Below are positions 7,321 to 20,646 of a DNA stretch of 20,646 nt, piece after piece (within the stretch, counting starts at the first letter, position 1; the number at the start of each line of letters is the position of its first letter). Position numbers and translations under genes: made by a program. Origin of the DNA: Immundisolibacteraceae bacterium (GTDB taxonomy: Bacteria; Pseudomonadota; Gammaproteobacteria; Immundisolibacterales; Immundisolibacteraceae); assembly GCA_019090185.1 (NCBI GenBank), contig JAHRWJ010000046.1:1-20646 (forward strand). Direction: 5' to 3'. Below the pieces are notes generated by a model that saw nothing but the letters and a program-made list of their open reading frames with translations, did no database searches and was not told the origin of the DNA.

Positions 7321-7473
7321 CATTCCAACAACGCCAGGATATCAAGCTTTTCAAAGGATTCTGTATGGGCTTGTTGGTTTGCTGAAGGCTTGCAACAGGG
7401 GGTTATCGAGTCTCCGCTTGTGGTTGACCGACCTTGGGTATCTAATAGCAGCTTCATTGGCCGGGAGAGGGTT

Positions 7474-8646
7474 ATGGAAGCGACAGTAGCGAATTATAAG
7501 TGGAGTGACTTGAGCGTGGTGGCCCGGGTGGGCAATGTGCCGGTATTGGCTTTTGGGCTCACGCCGCTGATTGGTCACTGGATGGGCGGAGGATTATGGT
7601 ACTGGCTGACGCCGGCGCTGTTTTTTCTGGTGATTCCGATTATCGACCTGTTGGTTGGTGAGGATCGGATCAACGCCCCGGCCGAAGCTGAACCAGAATT
7701 GGAATCAAAGCTCATTTATCGAGTACTTTGTTGGGCCTTTTTACCGCTGCAATACATCACCATGTTTTATCTGTTTGCGGTTATGACCAGCGGTGAACTC
7801 TCGTTTTATGAAATTGTTGGGGTCACCTTATCGATGATCTTTGGGGTTGGCATGGGGGCAACCGTATCCCATGAATTAGGCCATCGCCCGGCACGCATAG
7901 ACCGACTCATATCGGTGTTGATGATGGTGCCGTTTAACATGACCGATTTTTATATTTATCATAATTTTGGTCATCATAAATCGGTTGCAACTCCTGAGGA
8001 TCATGCGGCTGCACGTTACGGCCAATCGCTTTGGTCTTTCGTTTTTAAAAGCATTTACAACAAATCTAAAAGTGCCTGGGCAATTGAGGCCAGCCGTTTA
8101 GAGCGCCATGGTCTGTCAGCGCTACATTGGCGTAACCAGATGATATGGTTGGCGATGATGCCACCTGTGTTGTTGGCGGTTTTAATCTGGCAGTTTGGCT
8201 GGGTGGCGGTACCGATATTTTTAGCGCAATGCTTTATTGGTCGGATGATTCTGGCGATAGCCGACTATATGGAGCATTACGGCCTGGCCCGGCGTAAGCT
8301 GGCAAACGGTGAATATGAGCCGGTGCGAACTGACCATTCCTGGGATGATGCCTATTTGATCAGCAGTTTGATGTTCTGTCAGATTGATCGACATTCAGAT
8401 CACCATGCCAATGAGGGCAGGCCATATCAGATATTGCGGGTTATTGAGGGTGCGCCGCGACTTCCATACGGCTATATGGTGATGATTTTTGTCGCGATGA
8501 TACCGGTGCTTTGGCGCAAGATGATGCACCCCATCGTAGATGCGGTCTATGACGCTGGCAAGGTGTTGCCCCACGGTTATCCGGAAGATCTACCTGAGCG
8601 GTTTGCCGCTAGTGCCGTCTATCGACCAAAACCGGTAGCCTCATAG
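7474..8646 (+). CDS. alkB: AlkB-type alkane 1-monooxygenase (membrane non-heme di-iron hydroxylase)
   Basis: A 390-residue integral membrane protein of the AlkB/XylM hydroxylase family, which hydroxylates terminal methyl groups of medium-chain alkanes using rubredoxin as electron donor. About six hydrophobic segments surround the histidine boxes: HELGH (133-137), HNFGHH (163-168), EHYG (267-270, His268), DHSW (His288) and RHSDHH (306-311), followed by the AlkB-typical RPYQILR. VATPED (171-176) after box 2 is also AlkB-like. Differences from the consensus are Tyr162 in place of Glu before box 2 and Asp264 in place of Asn in the NYxEHYG region. The frame extends to 7390, but ATG 7474 is preferred because GAGAGG sits just upstream and the family begins here. 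No rubredoxin or rubredoxin reductase gene lies in the window. Substrate range is not deducible. It converges on the FHA/cyclase gene. Confidence 0.88.
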   Translation: MEATVANYKWSDLSVVARVGNVPVLAFGLTPLIGHWMGGGLWYWLTPALFFLVIPIIDLLVGEDRINAPAEAEPELESKLIYRVLCWAFLPLQYITMFYLFAVMTSGELSFYEIVGVTLSMIFGVGMGATVSHELGHRPARIDRLISVLMMVPFNMTDFYIYHNFGHHKSVATPEDHAAARYGQSLWSFVFKSIYNKSKSAWAIEASRLERHGLSALHWRNQMIWLAMMPPVLLAVLIWQFGWVAVPIFLAQCFIGRMILAIADYMEHYGLARRKLANGEYEPVRTDHSWDDAYLISSLMFCQIDRHSDHHANEGRPYQILRVIEGAPRLPYGYMVMIFVAMIPVLWRKMMHPIVDAVYDAGKVLPHGYPEDLPERFAASAVYRPKPVAS

Positions 8647-8682: not shown

Positions 8683-9684
8683 TCAGTAGTTAGCGATAAA
8701 TTCGATCAGGTGATCCGGGGATTTGTCCCGGCTTGGTGCCAGGCAGATCTGTCCGGCTCCCTTGAGCAGTAGTTCTTCGTTATGAACTAATGTCTGTAGC
8801 TCGCCAAGCAGTAGGCAGGAGCCATTAGCACTGTGGTCTATGTAGTATCCCCGGCCCTGGCGGAATTCGAAATGGCCGTGGCCTCGAGAAACATGGGTGC
8901 CACGGATACGGACATTGTTTTCCTTGCCTCGTCCAACCGTTAACTGATTACTTTGTTCGCTTAACGCATATTGTCGAGAATCGATGATCAGCGTAAGCGC
9001 TTCGGTGTGCCCAACTGCTGAGAGTTCTCGATCAGAGGGTTGAGTTTCTGTTGGTTGATTGACAGGATTTATCGTGGGTGAACTGACCGGTTGCTGGGGG
9101 ACAATCTCTGGATTAGTGACAATCGGCAATGGTGACGTTGGAATGTCATCTTCATCTTCATCTTCATTCTCATCCGTCACCAGAAGTTCGTAAATTGGCG
9201 ATTGGCCTTTTATTATCTCTGGATGAGGTTGTAATTTGACTTGACCGGGTATCAGCCCATCCCTTATCTGATCAGCCATGGCTTCAGAAACAAGCGTTTG
9301 GGAGTTATCGGCGCTATTGGCTAGCGTAATGGCAGTATCGAGTCCTTCACCGGCGACGCTGCCAGCAATCACATGTAACTTTGCGTAATGTACTCCCAAG
9401 CGCCAAAAGCTGCCTGCGCCGGTGGTTTCTTCCGCATCACCAAGGATTAGGTTTATCTTTATGACCGCCTGTAGGGCGCTTTCAGCGCTCGGGAATGTTC
9501 CGATCAGGCCATCTTTCAAACTCTTGGTGACCACGCCACGGCTGCTAAAAATAGCTTCGGTGATCAGTGATAGGGTCTGTGTTAACTGTTGGTCTCGAAT
9601 CCACTGATTGATCGTATCGCCTTGTGCTGTTGCAGGATCGGCAAGGCTCGCAAAAAGAATTCCGGAAAGGTTGGTTGATAACAT
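8683..9684 (-). CDS. FHA-domain protein with degenerate class III nucleotidyl-cyclase-like domain
   Basis: A 333-residue cytoplasmic protein with no membrane span. Residues about 5-165 resemble a class III adenylate/guanylate cyclase domain: GVVTKSLKDGLIGTFPS (50-66), RLGVHYAKLHVIAGSV...G (95-113) and LVSEAMAD (131-138) follow the family pattern. The first metal-binding region reads FASLADPA, where cyclases have F-x-D-I-x-x-S-T, and the transition-state Asn/Arg are not evident, so catalysis is doubtful; Asp58 is kept. A very acidic stretch (171-180) and a Pro/Thr/Gln-rich linker lead to an FHA phosphothreonine-binding domain (about 231-316) with Gly251-Arg252, Ser266-Arg267-His269 and Asn287-Gly288. 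The ATG lacks a strong Shine-Dalgarno. It lies 238 bp downstream of the cytochrome operon, on the same strand. A role in phosphorylation-dependent regulation of that operon is inferred. Confidence 0.82.
   Translation of the reverse strand: MLSTNLSGILFASLADPATAQGDTINQWIRDQQLTQTLSLITEAIFSSRGVVTKSLKDGLIGTFPSAESALQAVIKINLILGDAEETTGAGSFWRLGVHYAKLHVIAGSVAGEGLDTAITLANSADNSQTLVSEAMADQIRDGLIPGQVKLQPHPEIIKGQSPIYELLVTDENEDEDEDDIPTSPLPIVTNPEIVPQQPVSSPTINPVNQPTETQPSDRELSAVGHTEALTLIIDSRQYALSEQSNQLTVGRGKENNVRIRGTHVSRGHGHFEFRQGRGYYIDHSANGSCLLLGELQTLVHNEELLLKGAGQICLAPSRDKSPDHLIEFIANY
9146..9167. repeat. Short TCATCT tandem repeat in FHA gene
   Basis: Three perfect copies of TCATCT plus TCAT. On the coding (minus) strand they encode the alternating Glu/Asp run at the start of the linker. 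Copy number could vary by slippage without changing frame, since the unit is 6 bp. Confidence 0.7.
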
Positions 9685-9905: not shown

Positions 9906-9926
9906 CTAATAGCTGTTAGCTATTAG
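9906..9926 (-). terminator. Perfect 9-bp palindrome at the end of the cytochrome operon
   Basis: CTAATAGCT and AGCTATTAG are exact inverted repeats around a 3-base loop, overlapping the stop codon (9925-9923) of the reductase gene. It would fold in the operon mRNA at its 3' end, but the stem is AT-rich and no clear U-tract follows on the minus strand. It may be a weak terminator or an RNA-stabilising hairpin. Confidence 0.4.
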
Positions 9927-11197
9927 GCGTCGATGACTAGGTTTTCCTTAGGAATAGCGACACAAGTCAGACAATTTCCCGCTTCAACTGGTGCCCCCGG
10001 TTCGTTGGGATAGTCAACTGCACCACCGATGATCGCGACCTCGCAAGCACCACAATTACCAGCTCTACAGCCGCTATCCAGCTCTGCGCCGGCAGCTTCA
10101 ACGCATTCCAGAATTGAGCCGCTGCTGGTTGACCAGGGTATTTGCTTGCCAGAGCGTTTTAATTCAATGGTCAGCTGTTTATCTGTTGATGCCGATGCGG
10201 GTTCGCTTTGTGTGTCTCGAACACTTTTTACGGTGGCAGGTCCAAATGCTTCAAAGTGCACCTTATTTTTAGGCACACCCCAGTCGTAGAGGTCACTGGT
10301 CAGGCTGTCCATCAGTGGTGCTGGTCCGCAGATGTAATAGTCGAAATTGTTAGAAGGCAGCAGCTCTTTGAATAAGGCAACGCTGACCCGAGATTTGTGA
10401 TGAAAATCGATACCAAGCTGGTCTTCTTTACGAGGCCGAGACAGGCAAATGTTGAGCTTAACGTTGGGCATCTGCTGCGCGATTTGACTGAAATGGTCGC
10501 GCATGATTAGCTCAGAGCCATCCCTGGCCCCGTAAAAAAACCAGACTTCGCGTTGGGAGTCCATCGCGGTAATAGTGTTGAGCATACTTAATACGGGAGT
10601 AATGCCGATACCACCGCCAATCAATACGACGGGGTTCTGGTGTTCTGTATCCAGATAGAAGTGGCCCGATGGGGCTTTAACGTCAATGATGTCGTCTGGA
10701 TTGAGGACATGGTGGAAATAGGTGGAAGACTTGCCATCCGGTAGGTTGGGCTGATCGCGGGGAGCCGTTTCTCGTTTTACGGTTACCCGATAGTAATCTG
10801 GATGGTTGGGGCTATCGGATAACGAATAACAACGTATTAGCGGTTTGTCTTCGTTGGGAATATTTAGTTTAAACGTCAGGTACTGGCCGGGGTTAAAGGG
10901 GGGTAACGGCTTACCATCGTGGGGAGCGAAATAGAACGAGCAGATACCTTCCGCCTCGAGTATTTTCCCACGTAGCTCGAACTTACGAAAACCTTCCCAG
11001 GCGTCTTTAGCCCGGCTGACTGCAACCTGGGAGATCTGTTGTTGACGTTCGATTTTCTCCTGCAAGAGTTCAATTTCTTGACCAAAATAACGGGTTGCCA
11101 GGCGTGCTTCCTGCCAGCTACGCCAGACCTGTAAGGAACCGTAAAGGGTGATCGCCAGTATGCCGGCGACGGCGACCAGGTCGAAAACAATTGGCAT
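9923..11197 (-). CDS. Membrane-anchored FAD/NAD(P)H oxidoreductase with C-terminal [2Fe-2S] ferredoxin domain
   Basis: A 424-residue flavoprotein reductase. Residues about 5-25 form one membrane span followed by positive residues, so the catalytic part should face the cytoplasm. A helical, coiled-coil-like region (about 38-68) follows. The FAD-binding domain has R-C-Y-S-L-S (122-127), the NAD(P)-binding domain has GGGIGITP (194-201) and CGPAPLM (290-296), and the plant-type ferredoxin domain (about 340-424) has Cys377-x4-Cys382-x2-Cys385 and Cys412. The domain order (FAD, NAD, then 2Fe-2S) is that of Hcr-like reductases, whereas NqrF has its ferredoxin first; the membrane anchor recalls NqrF. 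It is the last gene of the cytochrome operon, starting 2 bp after the porin stop. It probably moves electrons between NAD(P)H and the membrane chain, but its partner and direction are not known. Confidence 0.9.
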   Translation of the reverse strand: MPIVFDLVAVAGILAITLYGSLQVWRSWQEARLATRYFGQEIELLQEKIERQQQISQVAVSRAKDAWEGFRKFELRGKILEAEGICSFYFAPHDGKPLPPFNPGQYLTFKLNIPNEDKPLIRCYSLSDSPNHPDYYRVTVKRETAPRDQPNLPDGKSSTYFHHVLNPDDIIDVKAPSGHFYLDTEHQNPVVLIGGGIGITPVLSMLNTITAMDSQREVWFFYGARDGSELIMRDHFSQIAQQMPNVKLNICLSRPRKEDQLGIDFHHKSRVSVALFKELLPSNNFDYYICGPAPLMDSLTSDLYDWGVPKNKVHFEAFGPATVKSVRDTQSEPASASTDKQLTIELKRSGKQIPWSTSSGSILECVEAAGAELDSGCRAGNCGACEVAIIGGAVDYPNEPGAPVEAGNCLTCVAIPKENLVIDA

Positions 11198-11199
11198 GG

Positions 11200-12696
11200 C
11201 TAGAATTTTCGCCGAATTTCGAAACGAACACCGAACAGGTTCTCGGCATTCTCGCGGTCAGCGAGGATGCTGTCGGCCCGGAAAATCCATGCTTTGTTGA
11301 GTGGCTGTTGAAAGCGTACCCCAAGCCCCCATTGGTCTCCCGCAGCACGGCGGTTGGTGCTACTTTTTCGGGTCTGGAGTCCGGCGATCTCAACGACTAT
11401 CTGGCGGTTGAGGTTGAACAGGTACTCTATTCCCAGCGCACCACCCCAGGTGTTGTTGGCGCTGTCGTCGAGCTTAGGAAAGCCGGTAAGGGCATCGGTC
11501 TCGAAGTTGATGCCGGTGTTTTTTAAAATTCCACCAGCGCCAGCGTCTCTGGCCAATGATTGGGGAGTATCAAACCCGGCAAACAGATTAAAATAAGGCA
11601 CTAGAGTGCTGGGTTTGGAGGAGATCAAAGAGTTTTCGATCAACACCACAAAGCCATCGGCGGTCTGTTTTGCACTGCCGCGACGGTTCTGTCCAAAATT
11701 ACCGACCACTCTGACAGAGTTAGATAACCAACCACCATAACGTCTGGTAAAGGCCGCGGTAATGTTGTGGTAACTCAGATCGTCGAAATCACCTTCACCA
11801 TCGACATAACCGTAGCCAAGTTCCCAATAGCCATTCATCGCGTCGATGAAAGTAGTTACCCCGTACAGATTGACATTGTGGTCAGCAAGATCGCCATTGT
11901 TATCCAGAACAGCGGCGGTGGTGACTTTGTCAAAAGCGGCAAAAAAGGTGATGTCAGCATTAGAGATGTTGAACTTTGGGCTATTTAATGCAGGGATGGT
12001 AAACGCTAAGCCGGTAAACGCATCTTCGACCCAGACCCCATTTTGAAATAGCAGAGGCATTAAGCCAACCGCGAATGGCAAATCAAACTTGTTGTGCCTG
12101 CCAGTAATGCCGGCGGTAATTGCGCCTAGATCACCTTCAAAAAACAGCGCTTCCAGGTTGCCATCTAACTCTAATTTGCAATCATCTCGATCAGCGCCTG
12201 CAAATTCACAGCGCGAAAACTTTCCGCCACCATCAATCGGCCGCACAAAGGCGTGGATACGTTCGGTACTGGTGATCTGATAGTCGATATCAATGTTGAG
12301 CCGAGTCGCAACGGAGGCTATTTCCGTAGTGCCGTTATCGTTGTAGGCGACCGCGGTGCGCCAGTCGCCGTAAACCGATAGCTGGTTTTTGGTTGGGTTT
12401 TTCTCACCCCATCCATGGCCAGGAGCTTTAAGGGGGCCGTTCTGATAGATCGCCTGACCCCATTCCAGCATGGGGCGAGGCACGGTGACTTTATGTTTAC
12501 CACCATAGATTTCCAGCTGGCGTTCGGCGTCATAGGGAACCGAGTCATAACTCGGGTCGGGCTTGAACACCGACCGATCATGGCTAACTGGGTGAGCAAG
12601 TTGATCGTGATGCGCATCACCAGAGGCAAGGAGTGTCGGGGCGGCCATAACCAGTGAAACGGCTAATAGTTTTTTAAGTAGGGTTGATTCGGACAT
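11200..12696 (-). CDS. Outer-membrane beta-barrel protein (porin-like) of the cytochrome operon
   Basis: About 498 residues with a signal peptide (basic LLKK, hydrophobic core, cleavage probably after the A-S near residues 24-26), a short His-rich mature N-terminus, and a body of alternating polar/hydrophobic strands rich in Gly, Asp and Asn. It ends in R-R-K-F; a C-terminal Phe is the usual BAM insertion signal of outer-membrane barrels. A single Cys pair (in the loop C-E-F-A-G...D-D-C) could form an extracellular disulfide. I cannot assign it to a named porin family. ATG 12696 or GTG 12699 may be the start; both are downstream of GAGGAG inside the pentaheme gene. Placed between the pentaheme cytochrome and the reductase, it may form the outer-membrane part of an electron conduit or admit the substrate. 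Confidence 0.82.
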   Translation of the reverse strand: MSESTLLKKLLAVSLVMAAPTLLASGDAHHDQLAHPVSHDRSVFKPDPSYDSVPYDAERQLEIYGGKHKVTVPRPMLEWGQAIYQNGPLKAPGHGWGEKNPTKNQLSVYGDWRTAVAYNDNGTTEIASVATRLNIDIDYQITSTERIHAFVRPIDGGGKFSRCEFAGADRDDCKLELDGNLEALFFEGDLGAITAGITGRHNKFDLPFAVGLMPLLFQNGVWVEDAFTGLAFTIPALNSPKFNISNADITFFAAFDKVTTAAVLDNNGDLADHNVNLYGVTTFIDAMNGYWELGYGYVDGEGDFDDLSYHNITAAFTRRYGGWLSNSVRVVGNFGQNRRGSAKQTADGFVVLIENSLISSKPSTLVPYFNLFAGFDTPQSLARDAGAGGILKNTGINFETDALTGFPKLDDSANNTWGGALGIEYLFNLNRQIVVEIAGLQTRKSSTNRRAAGDQWGLGVRFQQPLNKAWIFRADSILADRENAENLFGVRFEIRRKF

Positions 12697-12699
12697 CAC

Positions 12700-14439
12700 T
12701 CAGCGCTCCTCAACTTCAAATTCAACGGTTGCTGGATGCATGTCTAGCATCCACTCGTTCATGGCTTGTTCCATTTCACTGGTAGCACCGACAAAGCGCA
12801 TGAAATAAATGGGCTCAGCACGACTGCGAGCTCTAACCGCGAGCTGGTATTTCCCCGGGCTGGTGATCAGTTCCGCTGGCACGCTATAACGAGCGTCACG
12901 GTGCCCCAATGGCGGAATGCTGCGGGCTTCCATGCGCACAAACGGCGGATGGTTCATCACGCTCACGGGCTGGGCTGGTGGTCGTAAAAAGGGCAGCTGA
13001 TCAACGTCGAATTGCACCGGCAGATACATCTCTCGATCGGTACCTTTGACATTGGTGGTCAGGAACTTGGTCTGGAGATTGAATAGTTGGTCATCATGTT
13101 CGATGACTCCTGCTCGGACATCTGCAGAGTGCAGATCGGCCATATCGCCAACACTGTCTACATAGCCTGATTCCCAGATGGTTTCGCCAGCTGGATTGAT
13201 CAACGCAACATTCAGCCAGATTTCAGGCTGGGCTCCAAGAGAACCAGATGGCAGGTTGTGGCCACTGTTGAGGTTGTGCAGCTCGTATTTGAACTTGAGA
13301 TTTTTACCGGCCTCGGGAGTGGCCAGGAAAAACGGTCCATCTATCCGTGAGCCATTCTCCATCAACTGCTTGCGAGCTTCTTTTTTCGCTTCGAGCTTCT
13401 CAAGGTTCTCTTCGATGATCTCACGTGCGTCTTCGCGATCGCTACTGTCGGACCAGACTTCTGGAAATTCGGGCTCTTCATCGAGCTCTTCAATTTCCTC
13501 TTCGAAATCTTCATTACCCCAGCCAGCTCGATAGTCAAATTCTAGCCATTCCTCCATCGACCAGTCGGCGGCGTCCGGATGGTGGGGGAAAATTCCTGGG
13601 TGGGCAATAGGATAGCCTGGACCAAAAAATGAGTGGTTGGCATGACTGCCTTTTGGGTCGACCTTTTTACGGCCAATGACCGCTTTAGAACCTTTTTCTT
13701 TAGCGGCGGGAATACCGGGCACACTACTCATATGGCACTCCTGACACTGCACACCGTCAGCATGAGCAGGGGAGTCTCTATATTGGTCCCATACAACCTC
13801 TAGTTTAATACCCAGGTTGACCGCTACCTGATGGCAGCTGACACAGAACTCGGACTGGTCGAGGGTTTCAAACTGAATCGCTTCATTATGGATCTTGGCA
13901 CCCCGTTCACCTTTGGCTGTCGCAACCCGATAGGCGGCCTTTTTGTCGATGACATTACGCAGACCGGCACCGTCTGAGCTACCCATCACGGGCTGAAAGA
14001 TATCTCCCGGTGCAATGTAGCGCTCGCCGTTGACCTTGTTATAGGAGTCGCTGACCCGGTGACAGGTAATGCAGGTCACTCCCTCGCGGCTCACCTGGCT
14101 CCGTTCCCAAAGCGGCATTTCACGGCCTTCACCGAGTGCGGTGCCGACGCTCATGTGACAACGCACACAGAAATGATCGATGGTAGGGGCCAGGTTATTG
14201 ATCGCCTGTTCAAATTTATGAAACATCGGTGAGATGCCGGCGTAGGCGTGGTTAGAGCTACTCCACTCGTCATAGATTTGTTGGTGGCAACCGGCGCACT
14301 GACTTGCAGACGGGAAATCACTTTCGCTGTAGACAGCTCCATGCGGATCCATTACAGAATCAGGATCATCACTGGCGAAGAGTGCCGTAGCGCTTAACAG
14401 TAAGAGTGGAAACAGAATGGCTTTTTTTAGCTGTTTCAT
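12700..14439 (-). CDS. Periplasmic pentaheme cytochrome c (c554-like)
   Basis: A 579-residue exported protein. A signal peptide (MKQLKK, hydrophobic to about residue 20, cleavage near F-A-S) precedes five CXXCH haem sites: Cys48, 91, 123, 199 and 232. The first is followed by CH-x6-W-x4-HA (Trp59, His64), a pattern of cytochrome c554-type domains that is repeated in the tetraheme protein of this operon. Further His residues (266, 269, 280, 286, 287) are candidate axial ligands. Residues about 310-360 form a very acidic then basic helical linker. Residues about 365-575 look like a beta-sandwich, with HNLNSGHNLPSGS (388-400) and GHRDARY (512-518). No CXXCK site or other NrfA signature is present. 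ATG overlaps the decaheme stop by 4 bp (ATGA), so translation is coupled. Electron carrier or an unrecognised reductase; substrate unknown. Confidence 0.88.
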   Translation of the reverse strand: MKQLKKAILFPLLLLSATALFASDDPDSVMDPHGAVYSESDFPSASQCAGCHQQIYDEWSSSNHAYAGISPMFHKFEQAINNLAPTIDHFCVRCHMSVGTALGEGREMPLWERSQVSREGVTCITCHRVSDSYNKVNGERYIAPGDIFQPVMGSSDGAGLRNVIDKKAAYRVATAKGERGAKIHNEAIQFETLDQSEFCVSCHQVAVNLGIKLEVVWDQYRDSPAHADGVQCQECHMSSVPGIPAAKEKGSKAVIGRKKVDPKGSHANHSFFGPGYPIAHPGIFPHHPDAADWSMEEWLEFDYRAGWGNEDFEEEIEELDEEPEFPEVWSDSSDREDAREIIEENLEKLEAKKEARKQLMENGSRIDGPFFLATPEAGKNLKFKYELHNLNSGHNLPSGSLGAQPEIWLNVALINPAGETIWESGYVDSVGDMADLHSADVRAGVIEHDDQLFNLQTKFLTTNVKGTDREMYLPVQFDVDQLPFLRPPAQPVSVMNHPPFVRMEARSIPPLGHRDARYSVPAELITSPGKYQLAVRARSRAEPIYFMRFVGATSEMEQAMNEWMLDMHPATVEFEVEER

Positions 14440-16295
14440 GGGGAAGGTTCCTCGGTTGTGTTGCTACGCTCGTTTAAGCTGTCAGACGCTGAGTTTGAAG
14501 ACCTGGCAGATAGCGAAACCTGATCTAAAATAGAGCCAGAAAATGTAGAGTTCTGATGGTACTGGTGGCACTCGCTACAGCTATCGTTTACCCCTTTAGG
14601 GTTGTGGCAGCTTTGGCAGGTGGCGATATCAATCGGGTGAAAATTGCTTTGGTAAAGTGCGTCATCGATCTGTCCAGCGCTGCTAATTTGATCGAAATAT
14701 TCGCCAAAATCTGCCTGATGGTTAATGCGATGACAATTGTGGCAGCTTTGATCCAGACCGAGCAAGTTGATATGTGGGCTATGGGAGTACTTGCTCAAGG
14801 GTCGGTCTGAAGAGCCCGCGTACTGCCAGGGTATTTCTCCGATCTCCAAGGCTTGATTCATACTGTGACATTTTCCACAGCTGCTGCCCTCATCGTCGCT
14901 TGCAAGCATGGCGAGGCGTTCCAGGTCATTGTCCTGCTGGGCCTCATCGGTTTGGTTTATCGCTTGGCGGGTTGCCAGCTCCAACCAGGCCTTAGCAAAG
15001 GGGTCGTTGTGTCCGCTGATTCGGTAGTAGATGGCGTCATCATCGGCGCTCATGCCATTGGTGCTATTGATTTCAATGGATTCATCTTCGAGCCAGGCGC
15101 TGGCGACTTCGTCGATCGGGAAATCATCGATATGGTCGATAATTTGGTTTGTCGCGGATGAGGCAAGGGCTGGACGGTCCAGGAGTTCCTGCCAGTAATC
15201 GATGCCATCGTCCGACATCTGTTCGAGAAAATCGTCTCGAAGCTCGTCAAACGCGTCACTATCATCTGCTTGAATATCCAGTAGCAGGCTAGTGATTGGG
15301 GTCGGTTCATCCCGATAAGCGATGGTCAGTGTGGAACCGGTCAGGCTTTGATCGTGACAGGACGCGCAAATCTCGCCATAACTGCGAGGCTTAACTTCTC
15401 TTGTCGCCTGTTCAACACTGTGACAGCTGACACATTGCTTGGCCCGGTCGACGATTTCTGGCGGCGCACCTCGATACTGTTGAGGAAAGTATTTTTTAAA
15501 ATGGCGACTATGGTCAAAGCGGATGCTGCCGGCTGTTTCGCTGGGAAAATTTTCTGCAAAAGCTGGGTGACTGGCTGTAAAACTTGTAAAGGGTTGAGCA
15601 TGACAGGCTTGACCGCATTGGGTATCGCTCAATTCTGGAACCAGGTTGTTGTCACCATTATGTTCACTGTGGCAATCCAGGCATTGGGTTGCCGTCAGGT
15701 CCGTTCGGTCCGGAAAAATTCGATTATGTGCTTGTTGCCCACGGCCTGAAAAGCCATGACAGCTCTCACAGGCTTGATTGATGCTGGAGTCGGTAAATAG
15801 CGAATTGACCATGCCCGGCAAGGTGGGGTGCTGGTCATCGTGGCAGGTCTGACATCCCTGGGCACCGATAAATTCCTGGTGAACGCGACTGAGCGGGCCT
15901 GGATCGATACCGACATGAGGACTTTTTATCGATGGTTCGTAGAAATTGGCCAATGCAATCAGTACCAATGCCGGCAGAATAAAGGCCATCAGGACATAGT
16001 GGCCTCGGCGTTGTCGTAGCGTCGCTTGAGGAATACAGGCCGGGCGTTGATTACAGCATTGACCGTTAGGTAGCGGGCCTTGTTCACAAGCACCACCCGC
16101 ATGAGCGGGTCGGCGACAGATGTAGCGATCACCCTGTAACGCCGGGCGACACTCAAACTTACCGCCACAGCCGCCATCAACACTGGGTCCTTGCCAGCAT
16201 GATTTTTGCCAACGACGGGATCGACCGCAGCGGAAAGGCTGTTGGGGCCGTTCATAGCGACTGTTGGTGTGCCCAAAGGGGTTTTTTTTACTCAA
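14436..16295 (-). CDS. Inner-membrane-anchored decaheme cytochrome c with cysteine-rich cytoplasmic N-terminus
   Basis: A 619-residue protein in three parts. Residues 1-98 are basic and cysteine-rich (Cys 23, 33, 43, 49, 60, 70, 80, 81, 87). One membrane helix (about 100-118) follows R-Q-R-R, so the head should be cytoplasmic and the rest periplasmic. The periplasmic part has nine CXXCH sites (Cys148, 176, 205, 288, 310, 473, 518, 560, 573) and one CX3CH site (Cys227-x3-Cys231-His232), ten predicted haems. They form a cluster of six and a cluster of four, separated by an acidic haem-free stretch (about 315-470). The Ser/Asn-rich tail is probably disordered. The start appears to be TTG at 16295: no ATG or GTG exists in frame before the membrane helix, and the frame closes just upstream at the cytochrome b stop. 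The codons after it include a run of eight A. Likely electron relay between the inner membrane and periplasmic cytochromes. Confidence 0.88.
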   Translation of the reverse strand: MSKKNPFGHTNSRYERPQQPFRCGRSRRWQKSCWQGPSVDGGCGGKFECRPALQGDRYICRRPAHAGGACEQGPLPNGQCCNQRPACIPQATLRQRRGHYVLMAFILPALVLIALANFYEPSIKSPHVGIDPGPLSRVHQEFIGAQGCQTCHDDQHPTLPGMVNSLFTDSSINQACESCHGFSGRGQQAHNRIFPDRTDLTATQCLDCHSEHNGDNNLVPELSDTQCGQACHAQPFTSFTASHPAFAENFPSETAGSIRFDHSRHFKKYFPQQYRGAPPEIVDRAKQCVSCHSVEQATREVKPRSYGEICASCHDQSLTGSTLTIAYRDEPTPITSLLLDIQADDSDAFDELRDDFLEQMSDDGIDYWQELLDRPALASSATNQIIDHIDDFPIDEVASAWLEDESIEINSTNGMSADDDAIYYRISGHNDPFAKAWLELATRQAINQTDEAQQDNDLERLAMLASDDEGSSCGKCHSMNQALEIGEIPWQYAGSSDRPLSKYSHSPHINLLGLDQSCHNCHRINHQADFGEYFDQISSAGQIDDALYQSNFHPIDIATCQSCHNPKGVNDSCSECHQYHQNSTFSGSILDQVSLSARSSNSASDSLNERSNTTEEPSP

Positions 16296-16313
16296 AGTGA
16301 TTGGGGGTCTATT

Positions 16314-17132
16314 TTAGATTGAGTAGATATGGACCAGCGCAACATGCCAGATGACGAGCATTGCCAACGCTGAAACAGCAGGAATATGCACAAATAACCA
16401 AAGCTTGAGAACTCCCTGCAGCGTGTAATGAAAATCAATATTGGCTTTGCGTTCGCCAAGCTTTAATAAATCAGTCAGGTAAGGTTTTTCGTTTTCGCCA
16501 AGGTAGCGTTCAATCGCGCGGGTTTTGCCGCGCCACCAATATTCGTGGTACGAGCCGCTTAGCAGATGGTTCAGTAAAAAACGCGGTTTAAGAAAATACC
16601 AGCTTAAGTTCTCGATGTAGTGTTTTGCCAAGGTATCACTGCCGGTGGCCTGCTGAGATTCCTGCAGTAATTGTTCGACTTGCTCGCGGCAATCTATTAC
16701 CGCTTCCGTAATACGCTCAAACTGAATTTCGTCACCTGCCTGGGTTAGGCGTTGAGGTAGGGTTTTCTGTAAGAACCAACCGAGGACTCCGCTGATGGTT
16801 ACCAGGTAAAACAGTAGCGCTAATACCTGTTCGTAGGGGCCGCTAGGCCAAAACCGGCCAACATGTAACCAGTAAAGTGGCACCAGGGTGATGCCGGTAG
16901 CGATATGTAACCGGGTCCAGAACGCCATCGAGCCCAGCGGCAACATAGACAATCGTTTCCGGAGCCCAAAAGCAGTGGGTAAGAGCATTATTGTAAAAAG
17001 AAGATAACCGGTTGATAGTTCAGGTCTTTGTAGTTTGATGGTGTCTGTAATTGACCAGAAGGTGCCAACGCCAATGATGGTCAGGCAGCAGACCAGAAGA
17101 GTGATTCTAGTAGGAGTGATAAGTTTTAACAC
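16314..17132 (-). CDS. Membrane cytochrome b-like subunit with two histidine pairs
   Basis: A 272-residue integral membrane protein with about five hydrophobic helices (roughly 10-30, 40-57, 72-95, 100-121, 243-269) and a long polar, helical loop (about 122-240). Two helices carry His pairs with identical 14-residue spacing: His76/His90 and His249/His263 (His268 in addition). This spacing is that of the haem ligands of di-haem cytochromes b such as the bc1 b subunit, so two b haems stacked across the membrane are likely. I cannot name the family; it recalls b561/b-type quinol-oxidising anchors of respiratory complexes. It starts with GTG directly after the TAG of the Fe-S gene (no gap) and precedes the decaheme gene by 18 bp. 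The probable role is quinone/quinol exchange between the Fe-S protein and the periplasmic cytochromes. Confidence 0.78.
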   Translation of the reverse strand: MLKLITPTRITLLVCCLTIIGVGTFWSITDTIKLQRPELSTGYLLFTIMLLPTAFGLRKRLSMLPLGSMAFWTRLHIATGITLVPLYWLHVGRFWPSGPYEQVLALLFYLVTISGVLGWFLQKTLPQRLTQAGDEIQFERITEAVIDCREQVEQLLQESQQATGSDTLAKHYIENLSWYFLKPRFLLNHLLSGSYHEYWWRGKTRAIERYLGENEKPYLTDLLKLGERKANIDFHYTLQGVLKLWLFVHIPAVSALAMLVIWHVALVHIYSI

Positions 17133-18842
17133 CTAGCTGTCACCCAGCATATCGGTGTCGTGAAAATCGATTCGGCGCATCGCGTCGGCAGGGCAAGCCC
17201 TCACACAGGCAGGCCCGCCGATTTGATCCGCACAGAGATCACATTTAGTTGCTTTCATAATCGGTAACTGGCTTGCCGGATCTAGCACGGCCCGGCCACG
17301 GTTATCATTAATCTCTACTAGACGGATGTTGGAGTAAGGGCAGGAGTTTGCGCAGACCCCGCAGCCAATACAGGTGTCATCGTTGATGGTCACAATGCCC
17401 TGTTCGGCGGTACGGTGGATAGCGCCGGTTGGGCAACCTATCAGGCAGACAGGGTCACTACAGTGCATGCAAGCGTTGGCAATCATCCATTTGCCATGGA
17501 CTTTGCCATGGCGTAGGAACCGCGGATTGCCGTCATGGCCGCGGCTACAGGCAGTCACGCAGTCATCACAGCGTACACATTTGTCCATGTCGATCAGCAT
17601 GGATTGGGTGCCGTTGATATAGCGCTCGCTGACAGCCCATTCAAGTAGGTCATCAGATTCTTTAAAAGGTGCCGCGGCCAGTTTTTCGTAGTTGGGTGCG
17701 GATAACTCTTTTAGTGCCTCGGCCACTTCAGTTAAGGCGTAGCCGGGTATTCGTAATACATCGAGGTAGCCGGTGGCGTGCAGAGAACTGCGCATCGCCA
17801 CGTCCTGGCCGGTTTCCCAGTTGAGCATAAGCTCTTCGAAACCGAAGTGATCTCCGCTGCGCAAATAAGTGAGTGTGCGCCGGCCGTTGCCAGTTTTAAC
17901 GGATACTCGGCCAAACCCAGCTGCAATTAGCAACAGGCCGTCGCTATATTCACCCTCGCCAGCAACTACCGGCTCTTTGTTGTTAGCCAGTGTGGCCGCA
18001 CTATCGCGTTGGAAATCACTGAACCACTCAAAGCTGCCGAAAGTCTCAAACAGGGTGCAATCAGCAATACGCTGTAATGCCGGTTCATCAAGTTTGGCAA
18101 ATAATGGGTGTTCGCGAAGATGGGTCAGCAGGGTGTTCTGACGGTAGCTCTGGTCGATTATTTTGCGCCAACCTGGATCGTGCTTGCGAATATCCCGCAG
18201 CCCTTGCCAGCGGATTTCTAGTAGCAAACAGTTTTCATCGGCAATGATGCTGGCACTACGTGGTTCTCTTCGTAACGCAGCGACCTCGCCAAACAGCGAA
18301 CCCTTGGGCATGGGGACCGTATTTAGGGTTGCTATGATTGTTTTTAGGTTGGGGCCATCACGATCACCCCGGTCGATGACCACGGTGCCGAGTTCATCAA
18401 CATGTGTTTCGATGGCAGCGGAATTGCTGTCCCGGCCATAACGAGAAAGGTTTCTTGCTTCAACGTGGGGATTGTTGCTCCAGAGCTGGGAGAAAGACTG
18501 CCATAGAGATTTGGATTTGGTTTGATGGCGACCCAGTTGCTCTATCGGAATGCCAGGTGGCAAGATGACCCGTGCCGAACCGCTGATCACCAGAAACGCC
18601 GAGCTACCGTAATCCCCCTCGCGGATAATGATTTCACCACTCTGGCGTTGTACGAACCGGCAATCGTTGCTGAGAATGCCCTCCAGTGGCAGTGATCGGG
18701 GGAAACGATCCGCCTCTATTGCTGCAATTTCTGGAATTTGCAGCAATTTGCTGGCGTCGAGCTGCGCATGACTGGCATCAAAAGGGGAATCCCAGCGTTG
18801 TGGACGCGCCAGTACCGCAGCGGTTCGTTGTTCGCTTGCCAT
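17133..18842 (-). CDS. Cyclic-nucleotide-binding domain protein fused to a four-cluster [4Fe-4S] ferredoxin
   Basis: A 569-residue protein without signal peptide or membrane helix, so cytoplasmic. Residues about 55-230 are a Crp/PKA-type cyclic-nucleotide-binding (CNB) fold: the G-D-Y-G-S-S-A-F-L-V-I-S-G turn (76-88), then after an insertion of about 80 residues the phosphate-binding cassette FGEVAAL...RSA (Phe184, Gly185, Glu186, Arg195, Ser196, Ala197), which is intact. A second CNB-like domain (about 255-370) keeps F-G-F-E-E (333-337) but lacks the R-S/T-A triplet. Residues about 412-560 hold 16 Cys in four groups (422-432, 458-470, 491-501, 534-550), as in DmsB/HybA-type electron-transfer subunits carrying four [4Fe-4S] clusters. 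No molybdopterin catalytic partner is adjacent. It starts 24 bp after the tetraheme gene. It probably passes electrons to the cytochrome b next to it, with cyclic-nucleotide control inferred. Confidence 0.9.
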   Translation of the reverse strand: MASEQRTAAVLARPQRWDSPFDASHAQLDASKLLQIPEIAAIEADRFPRSLPLEGILSNDCRFVQRQSGEIIIREGDYGSSAFLVISGSARVILPPGIPIEQLGRHQTKSKSLWQSFSQLWSNNPHVEARNLSRYGRDSNSAAIETHVDELGTVVIDRGDRDGPNLKTIIATLNTVPMPKGSLFGEVAALRREPRSASIIADENCLLLEIRWQGLRDIRKHDPGWRKIIDQSYRQNTLLTHLREHPLFAKLDEPALQRIADCTLFETFGSFEWFSDFQRDSAATLANNKEPVVAGEGEYSDGLLLIAAGFGRVSVKTGNGRRTLTYLRSGDHFGFEELMLNWETGQDVAMRSSLHATGYLDVLRIPGYALTEVAEALKELSAPNYEKLAAAPFKESDDLLEWAVSERYINGTQSMLIDMDKCVRCDDCVTACSRGHDGNPRFLRHGKVHGKWMIANACMHCSDPVCLIGCPTGAIHRTAEQGIVTINDDTCIGCGVCANSCPYSNIRLVEINDNRGRAVLDPASQLPIMKATKCDLCADQIGGPACVRACPADAMRRIDFHDTDMLGDS

Positions 18843-18866
18843 TGTGATCCGCCGGTTGCTGAGTGT

Positions 18867-19805
18867 TTAGCGGTAATTTGTTGGGTCAGGAAGTGAACCG
18901 CCGACCAGGGGCGAGAGGTCGACATTTTTAATCGATTCAGCGAGCGCCCTACCACTGTTATGGTCAGGATTTGATAAAAAGGCAGCCACAGCACTATTGC
19001 TGTTAGCCAGCATCAGTGAAGCGCGAGCTGCTTTAGCAATGGCCAGTTGGGTTTTCTTGTAGTCACCCTCGGGTGCGATTGCGATGGCTTGTTCTGCGGC
19101 GACCAACTGCGCGGCTTTGCCGATTAGAAAAAGTCTACTCAAGCCTGGAGCATCAAGTTCCGCGTTACTTTCCAGGTTGGGAGGGTAGAAGCGGTGGCGG
19201 ACGCTGCCCTGGGAATATTCAACCAATTCGAACTGCTGATTTAACGGATGGCCGTTGGCAAACATGGCAGCCAAACTCTCACCTTCGATATCAGGGCGGG
19301 ACAGGCCGTGGCAGGAGGCGCAGTTGCTAGCAATGCCAAACAGATTAAATGCGCCGATTAAGCCAGCACTTTCGGCAGAGGCAAGGCGTTGGTTTTTGTG
19401 CTCTGCCGGTTCGGCTTCGGCAGAATCAAAATCACCATAATCGTTGTGCAGGTCGATCCAGTCTGATGAGGGGCCGTGGCAACTTTCGCAAGAGGGACCC
19501 GCCTTAGCCTTTGGTTTAGATTTGGCGGTTTTTTGACGCAGACTAAAGTGACAGGAGATGCAAAGCGGATCGCGTTTCATCGACGTTTCACTACCAACCG
19601 CGGCAAGCAGCTCTGCGGCTTGTTCAGATTTGTGCACGGTTTTATAAGACTTGGCATGCACAGTCCCTTCCCAAACCTCCAGTTCAGCAGTGTGGCAAGA
19701 TTCACACGGCTTGACGCCCTGGAAAAACGGTTCTGCACCAGGGCTGCTAGTTAGGCTGATGAGAAAAAGAAACAGAATGCCAAGAAGTGGCGTGCTTCTG
19801 GTCAT
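18867..19805 (-). CDS. Periplasmic tetraheme cytochrome c (c554-like)
   Basis: A 312-residue exported protein, first gene of the operon. A signal peptide (hydrophobic to about residue 20, S-P-G-A-E cleavage region) precedes four CXXCH sites: Cys34, 82, 106 and 162. Site 1 is followed by CH-x6-W-x4-HA (Trp45, His50), exactly as in the pentaheme protein, which points to common ancestry. Haem sites occupy the first half; the second half (about 170-312) has no haem and looks helical, with an Ala-rich segment at 230-280. ATG 19805 is chosen over the upstream in-frame ATG at 19859 because GGAG precedes it and the signal peptide then starts correctly. Likely a soluble electron carrier between inner- and outer-membrane parts. 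The c554 resemblance does not by itself imply ammonia oxidation: no HAO is here. Confidence 0.88.
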   Translation of the reverse strand: MTRSTPLLGILFLFLISLTSSPGAEPFFQGVKPCESCHTAELEVWEGTVHAKSYKTVHKSEQAAELLAAVGSETSMKRDPLCISCHFSLRQKTAKSKPKAKAGPSCESCHGPSSDWIDLHNDYGDFDSAEAEPAEHKNQRLASAESAGLIGAFNLFGIASNCASCHGLSRPDIEGESLAAMFANGHPLNQQFELVEYSQGSVRHRFYPPNLESNAELDAPGLSRLFLIGKAAQLVAAEQAIAIAPEGDYKKTQLAIAKAARASLMLANSNSAVAAFLSNPDHNSGRALAESIKNVDLSPLVGGSLPDPTNYR

Positions 19806-19874
19806 GCAGAGTGCTCCGGAAAATGGTTGGGTCGAGTTGGCTGGCGGATGGTTCCGCATCTAATTTATCTGCGG

Positions 19875-19903: not shown

Positions 19904-20646
19904 CTATTGGCCAAATAAAACCGTCTCATCGGTCTCTTCGGCTATCGGTAGTTCAAAAATAAATTCTAGCTTGGCAATTTGTATTTTGTCTCCAGACTGG
20001 AGTTTTCTAGGCAGTCGAGAGTTCTCATAATTAACTTTGCAGCCATTTTTTGAGTTCTGATCGGTAAACCAGTAACCATCGGCACGGTATTCCAAAATTG
20101 CGTGCAGCCGGCTGATGCCCGGGTTTTCTAAAATCAATAGGCGGGGTCGTTCGTGCCAGGTATCTCGCCCAGGGTCTCTACCAATTCTGGTGATTGAGCC
20201 TGTCACCTCAATTCTTGGATTACCGCTAGCTTTTTCCAAATCGTGGAGCACTGCTTCGGGTGCAGAATGAATGATTTTGGGCCGTTTTAACCAGACCCAA
20301 CCGTAGCCGCCCAATGCAGTCATCAGCGCTATTCCAACCACCGGCGCAACAAGCCAGCTCCTGTCCAAGGCTGCAGTGACAGGCTGGTCAGGTTTTTTGT
20401 CAACAGTTGGCTTGTCAGTTGTTACGGGTTTTGGCTTGTCTGCTGGTTTAACCGCCTTGGCAGCATGGCTGGTGCGTCCAGAAAACTCCGGTATTTGAGT
20501 GTCAGCTGGTTGTTCTAAGGTGGGTTTCTTGGAGGGTTCGGCAATGCTTTGTATAGGGCTTTGCTCTAATGAAGAAGCGGGTTCTTCTATTAGATCGAAG
20601 GCGAACTCATTGAGGGCATCCAGCGCATCTTCACTTTTGTTGGTCA
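19904..20646 (-). CDS. Membrane-linked FHA-domain protein, N-terminus beyond window
   Basis: The reading frame is open from the stop at 19904 to the right edge, so only the last about 247 residues are visible; the TTG at 20368 is not a credible start. From the edge inward come an acidic segment rich in Ala, Leu and Glu, a long Pro/Lys/Thr-rich linker with repeated K-P and D-K-P steps, one membrane helix (encoded about 20360-20290) followed by L-K-R-P-K, then an FHA domain (about 20220-19930) with R-I-G-R-D, G-I-S-R-L-H-A and S-K-N-G. Positive residues after the helix favour a cytoplasmic FHA domain and a periplasmic linker. The missing N-terminus could hold a kinase, vWA or other sensor domain; I cannot tell. 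It lies 98 bp upstream of the cytochrome operon on the same strand, mirroring the FHA gene at the other end. Confidence 0.8.
   Translation of the reverse strand, partial: TNKSEDALDALNEFAFDLIEEPASSLEQSPIQSIAEPSKKPTLEQPADTQIPEFSGRTSHAAKAVKPADKPKPVTTDKPTVDKKPDQPVTAALDRSWLVAPVVGIALMTALGGYGWVWLKRPKIIHSAPEAVLHDLEKASGNPRIEVTGSITRIGRDPGRDTWHERPRLLILENPGISRLHAILEYRADGYWFTDQNSKNGCKVNYENSRLPRKLQSGDKIQIAKLEFIFELPIAEETDETVLFGQ

Follow-up and report, generated by a model that had tools for sequence, protein, structure and literature searches.

Control of respiratory electron wires is generally ascribed mainly to gene expression or substrate supply. A contig of an Immundisolibacteraceae bacterium (JAHRWJ010000046.1, analysed here over its full length of 20,646 bases and called the window) raises the question of what such a wire would do with a sensor of its own, and where its electrons would come from and go. 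It carries a seven-gene operon that combines multihaem cytochromes, a candidate membrane cytochrome b, a beta-barrel and a flavin reductase with an iron-sulfur protein that bears cyclic-nucleotide-binding (CNB) domains. With moderate confidence, and arguing from sequence, we read the operon as a cyclic-nucleotide-gated chain that would pass electrons from NAD(P)H across the inner membrane to the periplasm, its sensor residing in the cytoplasmic iron-sulfur subunit.

The genes run along the minus strand in the order C4 (a tetrahaem cytochrome), CNB-FeS (the iron-sulfur protein), CytB (the cytochrome b candidate), C10 (decahaem), C5 (pentahaem), BAR (the barrel) and RED (the reductase), with intergenic gaps of 24, 0, 18, -4, 0 and 2 bp (Table 1). 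A preliminary description of this DNA had proposed a tightly spaced operon, and all of its open reading frames indeed lie in place on the minus strand. Its cofactor tally is likewise confirmed by motifs and domain matches, which yield 19 c-haem sites (four in C4, nine CxxCH and one CxxxCH in C10, five in C5), four [4Fe-4S] clusters, one [2Fe-2S] cluster and an FAD. Among the window's proteins a Pfam scan places cyclic-nucleotide-binding and Fe-S families in CNB-FeS, FAD, NAD and [2Fe-2S] families in RED, c554 in C4 and C5, and c7/c3 in C10; it gives no family for CytB or BAR. Three features are additions to that description: FHA1, a gene upstream of the operon that encodes an FHA domain; FHA2, a degenerate cyclase-FHA gene downstream on the same strand; and an N-terminal domain of C10 with eight cysteines (8-Cys domain). 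The source genome comprises 1.6 Mb in 333 contigs and is 61% complete, and the window, which is an entire contig, ends 278 bases upstream of FHA1, so that nothing beyond that gene is visible.

Artefact or chance as the source of the gene set is ruled out by its conservation. One scan of genome contigs, made with patterns drawn from the window's CNB-FeS and biased towards its relatives, gave 53 loci labelled as Alpha- and Gammaproteobacteria, Burkholderiales, Planctomycetes, Verrucomicrobia, Kiritimatiellae, Nitrospinae, Nitrospirales, Zixibacteria, Poribacteria and Omnitrophica; these labels amount to eight or nine phyla, and some bins may be mislabelled. The closest CNB-FeS homologue that carries an organism name is from Immundisolibacteraceae (76%). 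CytB is present in 52 of the 53 loci, C10 in 50, C4 in 42, RED in 40, C5 in 30 and BAR in 28, with all seven genes in 21 loci and five core genes (C4, CNB-FeS, CytB, C10 and RED) in 33. Some misses are contig ends and others are real within 10 kb (C4 and RED in L021, C4 in L043 and L047). The preliminary proposal of a conserved multi-cofactor electron-transfer operon could have fallen on a lack of joint conservation; this was looked for, and the gene set proved to be kept together across loci, which supports the proposal. That it is kept across phyla despite a reshuffled order also speaks for the reading put forward here.

Within this set the operon consists of two separately evolving modules, the core and a C5-BAR pair. 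Pairwise-distance correlations are 0.70-0.93 within the core, 0.94 for C5 against BAR and 0.53-0.67 between the groups; as no unrelated control gene was included, these values show modules, not function. The pair may follow C10, precede RED or lie on the opposite strand, and of the 30 loci with C5, 27 also have a porin partner for it. By profile, C5 turns up in 46 of the 51 carrier genomes searched, scoring at least 370 bits in 45, so it is often present even where absent from the locus; these carriers, which also underlie the RuBisCO and COX1-family counts below, are G000, G001 and the genomes of 49 of the 53 loci (L034, L053 and L056 left out, as was L014, whose genome is evidently G001). 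Among 56 relatives searched, a strong C5 (E < 1e-100) occurs in three, G000, G001 and G035, each with a CNB-FeS core of the main type or of a sister type described below. The same-genus genome G001 has BAR-C5-C10-CytB-CNB-FeS on one contig and FHA2-RED on another.

The residues that would bind the cofactors are conserved as well. Besides the window's own proteins, the alignments hold 24 of 35 C5, 22 of 29 BAR and 40 of 51 CytB sequences and 29 of 37 eligible C10 N-termini; their rows are not independent, since L004 and L014, which enter the C10, C5 and BAR rows separately, are one and the same locus, and several Minwuia rows are near-identical. The haem-motif histidines are kept in 49/50 to 51/51 rows of C10, in 42/42 or 43/43 of C4 and in 31/31 of C5. 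C10 has exactly ten further histidines kept in every row having the column, and C4 has four further invariant ones; these are distal-ligand candidates for the ten haems of C10 and the four of C4. This equality suggests that both proteins are wires rather than catalysts; a catalytic haem in either was considered and rejected on the same count. The longest C4 frame opens at 19859, and the signal-peptide start was placed by eye at 19805.

CNB-FeS should be cytoplasmic, for no signal peptide was seen by eye. Its 16 cysteines, in four clusters, are each kept in 53/53, 53/54 or 54/54 rows having the column, and its two CNB domains appear as three Pfam stretches. In cyclic-nucleotide-binding domains the motif GE...R marks the phosphate-binding cassette. 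The first domain has this cassette, with FGE in 53/53 rows and Arg195 in 52/53, a degree of conservation unlike that of a relic; in the second, the conserved arginine is absent within residues 328-352.

CytB is a candidate two-haem transmembrane wire. About five hydrophobic segments can be made out by eye, and two H-x13-H pairs, His76/His90 and His249/His263, fall in such segments and are invariant (41/41 rows; 52/52 or 53/53 in a wider alignment). This spacing is typical of two-haem cytochromes b, which makes the four histidines putative haem b ligands. Searches of CytB against Pfam, NCBIfam and the PDB gave no family; the most frequent weak Pfam match among its members is DUF4405 (8/41, best E 0.0023), and the 38 homologues listed are, where named, only 'hypothetical protein'. 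The transmembrane domain of NADPH oxidases and ferric reductases shares the two H-x13-H pairs, which would stack two haems across the membrane, but the ferric reductase domain PF01794 was matched in only one of 41 members (E 0.027), with no solid sequence match. The operon further differs from NADPH oxidase-type proteins in that its flavoprotein is a separate gene and the electron would pass to C10.

RED has the domain order FAD-NAD-Fer2 (FAD_binding_6, NAD_binding_1 and Fer2), and its best NCBIfam match is a flavohaemoprotein model (258.8 bits against a cut-off of 432), whose reductase half it resembles. The analysis shows the genes, their conservation and cofactor motifs, the predicted folds of C5 and BAR, and the two modules; beyond these we infer a route in which NAD(P)H would reduce the FAD and [2Fe-2S] centre of RED, and RED in turn the four [4Fe-4S] clusters of CNB-FeS. 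Electrons would then cross the inner membrane through the two putative b haems of CytB to the decahaem C10 and on to the periplasmic cytochromes C4 and C5. cAMP or cGMP, if bound by the first CNB domain, would switch the Fe-S step open or shut, and the last acceptor would most likely be a small molecule that enters via BAR and receives its electrons from C5 or a partner.

A sister lineage bears on the flavin input. Searching plasmids turned up, on pMSHV of Sphingobium herbicidovorans, a distant CNB-FeS (26% over 69% of the query) that forms one protein with a pyridine-nucleotide flavoprotein; a CytB homologue (profile E 2.4e-25) comes next. The fusion is present in all five sister loci examined, four of which (from G035, G012, G045 and G016) had been chosen because their frames measure 807-850 codons. 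In Sphingobium, G035 and G016 (L105, L106 and L109) it is followed by CytB and a decahaem gene, and in G012 (L108) the contig ends within CytB. Among the best 120 of 7162 homologues of the fused protein, the domain lists include PF07992 and PF00027, with the dinucleotide motif in 120/120 and the cyclic-nucleotide cassette in 119/120. Flavin input of the NAD(P)H type is therefore usual in this lineage. Such Pyr_redox-CNB-ferredoxin fusions, which NCBI names mostly 'cyclic nucleotide-binding domain-containing protein', share the CNB-Fe-S half with the main type. The Sphingobium core (L105, NZ_CP020539.1 804886-826082) lies on a plasmid typed as conjugative and may therefore move between bacteria.

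Several links to cyclic nucleotides and to FHA domains suggest how the chain might be controlled. Matches to class III cyclases, counted for 50 of the 53 loci (L034, L053 and L056 left out) with expected numbers from rounded genome sizes, total 365 in the 197.6 Mb of the 50 carrier genomes, and 11 of these loci have a cyclase where 1.5 would be expected. The cyclase neighbour cluster spans 13 loci, 11 of them with a catalytic domain; L042 and L045 end inside an open reading frame of that cluster. Planctomycete loci have a cyclase in 8 of 12 cases (0.12 expected), and sister-type gammaproteobacterial loci in two of four (0.05 expected). The phosphoesterase that follows the decahaem gene in Sphingobium most resembles SpdA (132.6 bits against a cut-off of 400) and cAMP phosphodiesterase (78 bits against 225). 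In place of the 8-Cys domain of C10, the sister-type decahaem proteins have an N-terminal FHA domain, at 24.2 and 27.0 bits in G035 and G016 and at 17.6 bits, below the cut-off of 20.7, in Sphingobium; one of two planctomycete cyclases scanned has an FHA match of 19.1 bits against the same cut-off. Taken with the intact cassette, the cyclase, phosphoesterase and FHA links make control of the chain by a cyclic nucleotide our best guess.

FHA1 lies 98 bp ahead of the C4 start and is possibly the first gene of the unit; no homologue of it was found in the 53 other loci at 40 bits or above. FHA2 lies 238 bp after RED, an order shared with G001, and is homologous to cyclase-FHA proteins; Pfam detects its FHA domain alone and no cyclase match. 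Class III cyclases catalyse with a metal-binding Asp pair and an Asn/Arg pair. The first metal Asp is Ser in the window's FHA2 (Asp in G001), and the Asn and Arg are absent in both, so the protein is probably inactive as a cyclase. A Nitrospirales CNB-FeS (L051, 1516-4101) has N-terminal FHA domains of its own (two matched stretches; 120.7 bits).

A number of observations weigh against a nucleotide-gated, NAD(P)H-fed chain. The planctomycete loci are one lineage and not independent, and outside them the main type shows only a weak cyclase excess, with 3 of 38 loci against 1.44 expected; FHA2 has lost its cyclase residues; and the Sphingobium locus has a phosphoesterase and no cyclase match. 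Some loci, L021 and L057 among them, truly lack RED or C4 within 10 kb. Since the flavoprotein of the fusion is no homologue of RED, it offers only an analogy, and on the 5.8 kb contig of G045 (L107) neither CytB nor a decahaem gene stands beside the fusion. Finally, Geobacter extHIJKL, which likewise lacks an outer-membrane cytochrome, supports metal-oxide reduction, which leaves room for a solid acceptor (PMC6148476, available part).

Where, then, would the electrons end? BAR models as a barrel of about 18 strands (predicted local distance difference test, pLDDT, 80.6) that matches Campylobacter MOMP and small-molecule Occ/OprD porins, and at model level it has the 18-strand OprD/Occ fold. 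A PDB profile search with BAR gave nothing, and none of 23 BAR members matches OprD in Pfam, while three match OprB (best E 0.0018). MtrCAB and PioAB, in which a barrel gene likewise adjoins multihaem genes, have a barrel of 26 strands that encloses a decahaem cytochrome. BAR departs from this arrangement in its strand number, no surface cytochrome was seen here, and C5 matches c552; the Foldseek lists used for BAR comprise top-ranked matches, MtrA/MtrB-like chains were not sought lower down, and their absence there carries no weight. C5, too, was modelled (pLDDT 68.5, with poor parts) and matches the pentahaem cytochrome c552 of Thermochromatium tepidum (PDB 5ze8) over residues 38-574 at 16% identity; with five CxxCH motifs, this predicted fold and a C-terminal immunoglobulin-like (Ig-like) domain, it has the features of the family of c552 and the cable-bacteria pentahaem cytochromes (PHCs), from which its porin partner sets it apart. 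Six further histidines are kept in at least 28 of 29 C5 rows, which neither indicates nor rules against an open haem. In L052, L026, L054 and L020, from some alphaproteobacteria, C5 has 758-761 residues, about 180 more than in the window.

The preliminary description had the chain cross the outer membrane and favoured extracellular transfer, in which C5 would dock to the barrel and electrons would pass out through it to reach minerals or electrodes. A porin with a periplasmic pentahaem cytochrome does recall Geobacter extHIJKL, but BAR models as an 18-strand diffusion porin, and no lipobox was seen by eye at the N-termini of C4 and C5 (no signal-peptide program was used). Nor did the 15 window open reading frames scanned include a surface cytochrome, an ExtH-like lipoprotein or a rhodanese; the contig ends just upstream, and the other loci were not scanned for rhodanese. 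With such a barrel and no surface cytochrome seen, a small acceptor entering via BAR is likelier than a wire through it. In Geobacter itself, extHIJKL supported Fe(III) citrate reduction at only 20% of the wild-type level (PMC6148476, available part), and loss of extI impaired the reduction of selenite and tellurite but not of Fe(III) (PMC5877670, available part). The outer-membrane crossing is thus not borne out, and we consider extracellular transfer unlikely.

Electron input, in which C4 and C5 would oxidise a periplasmic donor and pass the electrons into the cell, to NAD(P)+ or to a sink in the cytoplasm, appears still more doubtful. C4 is c554-like, and multihaem wires and reductases of this kind can work both ways; but RuBisCO occurs in only 4 of the 51 carrier genomes, which argues against a general need for reverse flow, and apart from the cyclase cluster no neighbour cluster recurs in more than six of the 53 loci, so no donor enzyme is linked and no shared neighbour names a substrate. 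A glutamate dehydrogenase-like cluster, assigned by eye, stands at five. Of the reverse flow to NAD(P)H that the preliminary description had entertained, the autotrophic form is accordingly unlikely and was rejected as a general role. COX1-family proteins (PF00115) occur in 47 of the 51 carriers, 46 of them over the cut-off; as this family also includes nitric oxide reductases, the count is no proof of oxygen respiration. The window's own incomplete genome has neither a RuBisCO nor a COX1-family match. An ordinary quinone oxidoreductase of Fe-S, cytochrome b and multihaem c subunits, with purely structural CNB domains and RED serving something else, would be of a known kind (Cbc, Hmc and Dsr complexes), and the best NCBIfam matches of the Fe-S part (DmsB, AegA, FDH-beta, HybA, HydN and DsrO, all under cut-off) agree with it, but the kept cassette, the frequency of RED and the sister-lineage fusion make it very improbable.

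The nearest characterised cluster is the ext cluster of Geobacter sulfurreducens, extHIJKLMNOPQS, which encodes a porin (ExtI), 5-haem (ExtKL), 10-haem, 12-haem and 4-haem cytochromes, a Rieske protein and a cytochrome b (PMC5877670, available part). It shares with the operon a porin, penta-, deca- and tetrahaem cytochromes, an Fe-S protein and a cytochrome b, but has the rhodanese lipoprotein ExtH, the Rieske protein and the 12-haem cytochrome, and its gene list as described there contains no CNB protein and no FAD/NAD(P)H reductase. The preliminary statement that known porin-cytochrome systems lack such inner-membrane partners was therefore overstated. Small PHCs, ExtKL and c552 are described as structurally alike (PMC11976967, available part); C5 reaches 36.1 bits against the cut-off of 250 of the ExtKL model NF040886, and is related in fold type only. 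Among the matches listed from the open-licence PMC literature, no title or abstract opening describes the operon's combination, in keeping with the earlier view that it is apparently undescribed. We place the operon with a known module of Fe-S protein, cytochrome b and multihaem cytochromes with a porin, from which its cyclic-nucleotide sensor and flavin input set it apart.

The 8-Cys domain of C10 has eight conserved cysteines in two repeats ahead of the membrane segment; a scan of 30 members at E 0.1 gave no recurring Pfam family, and the best PDB match, a fungal Zn2Cys6 protein (E 0.0026), was not relied on. Six planctomycete C10 proteins (L036, L039, L046, L060, L064 and L065) keep the flanking YxRP and SLRxxR motifs without the eight cysteines between them, so the domain is not essential. 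Large decahaem proteins lie near cores that have no C5-BAR pair in the locus (L105 15881-19870, L109 1-3666, L047 16588-20592 and L040 8026-10918); all three scanned have LVIVD repeats, and these proteins are a possible alternative terminal module. In G035 the C5-BAR pair is on another contig than the core, flanked by open reading frames that look by eye like vanadium haloperoxidases (L079 6042-7685 and 12039-12608), of which the one scanned has no Pfam match at 1e-10. In the window, positions 7390-8646 encode a membrane protein of the FA_desaturase family, by eye an AlkB-type alkane monooxygenase, convergent with the operon side, and the left half carries siroheme synthase, Na/sulfate symporter-family, PhzF-like and MnmC-like (by eye) genes.

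Table 1. Features of the operon and its flanks in the window
Feature	Description	Position	Strand	Evidence
FHA1	N-terminal hydrophobic segment (by eye) and FHA domain	19904..20368	-	PF00498 47.7 bits
C4	Periplasmic tetrahaem c554-like cytochrome	18867..19805	-	PF13435 51.4 bits; 4 CxxCH
CNB-FeS	Two cyclic-nucleotide-binding domains and four [4Fe-4S]	17133..18842	-	PF00027 75.1 bits; Fer4 families
CytB	Candidate two-haem transmembrane cytochrome b	16314..17132	-	Two H-x13-H pairs; 0 Pfam/NCBIfam families
C10	8-Cys N-terminal domain, one membrane segment (by eye), periplasmic decahaem domain	14436..16295	-	Cytochrome_C7 and c3 matches
8-Cys domain	N-terminal domain of C10, before membrane segment	16014..16256	-	Two repeats C-x9-C-x9-C plus fourth Cys
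C5	Periplasmic pentahaem cytochrome, c552 type, Ig-like C-terminal domain	12700..14439	-	Five CxxCH; model fold
BAR	Outer-membrane beta-barrel, ~18 strands, C-terminal Phe	11200..12699	-	Structure model
RED	FAD/NAD(P)H/[2Fe-2S] reductase, N-terminal membrane anchor (by eye)	9923..11197	-	PF00970, PF00175, PF00111
FHA2	Degenerate class III nucleotide-cyclase domain and FHA	8683..9684	-	FHA 22.7 bits; cyclase-FHA homology

We tentatively suggest that the main and sister lineages, spread over many phyla, form a wider class of second-messenger-gated conduits. In these, a cyclic nucleotide bound to a ferredoxin-fused sensor would switch electrons from NAD(P)H across the inner membrane into a network of periplasmic multihaem proteins, and docking of FHA domains to phosphopeptides would provide a second control. 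A CNB sensor inside the Fe-S subunit could let the cell start or stop electron flow across the membrane at once. Many uncultured bacteria of several phyla have the system, and with a sister copy on a plasmid of a named Sphingobium strain it can be put to the test now.

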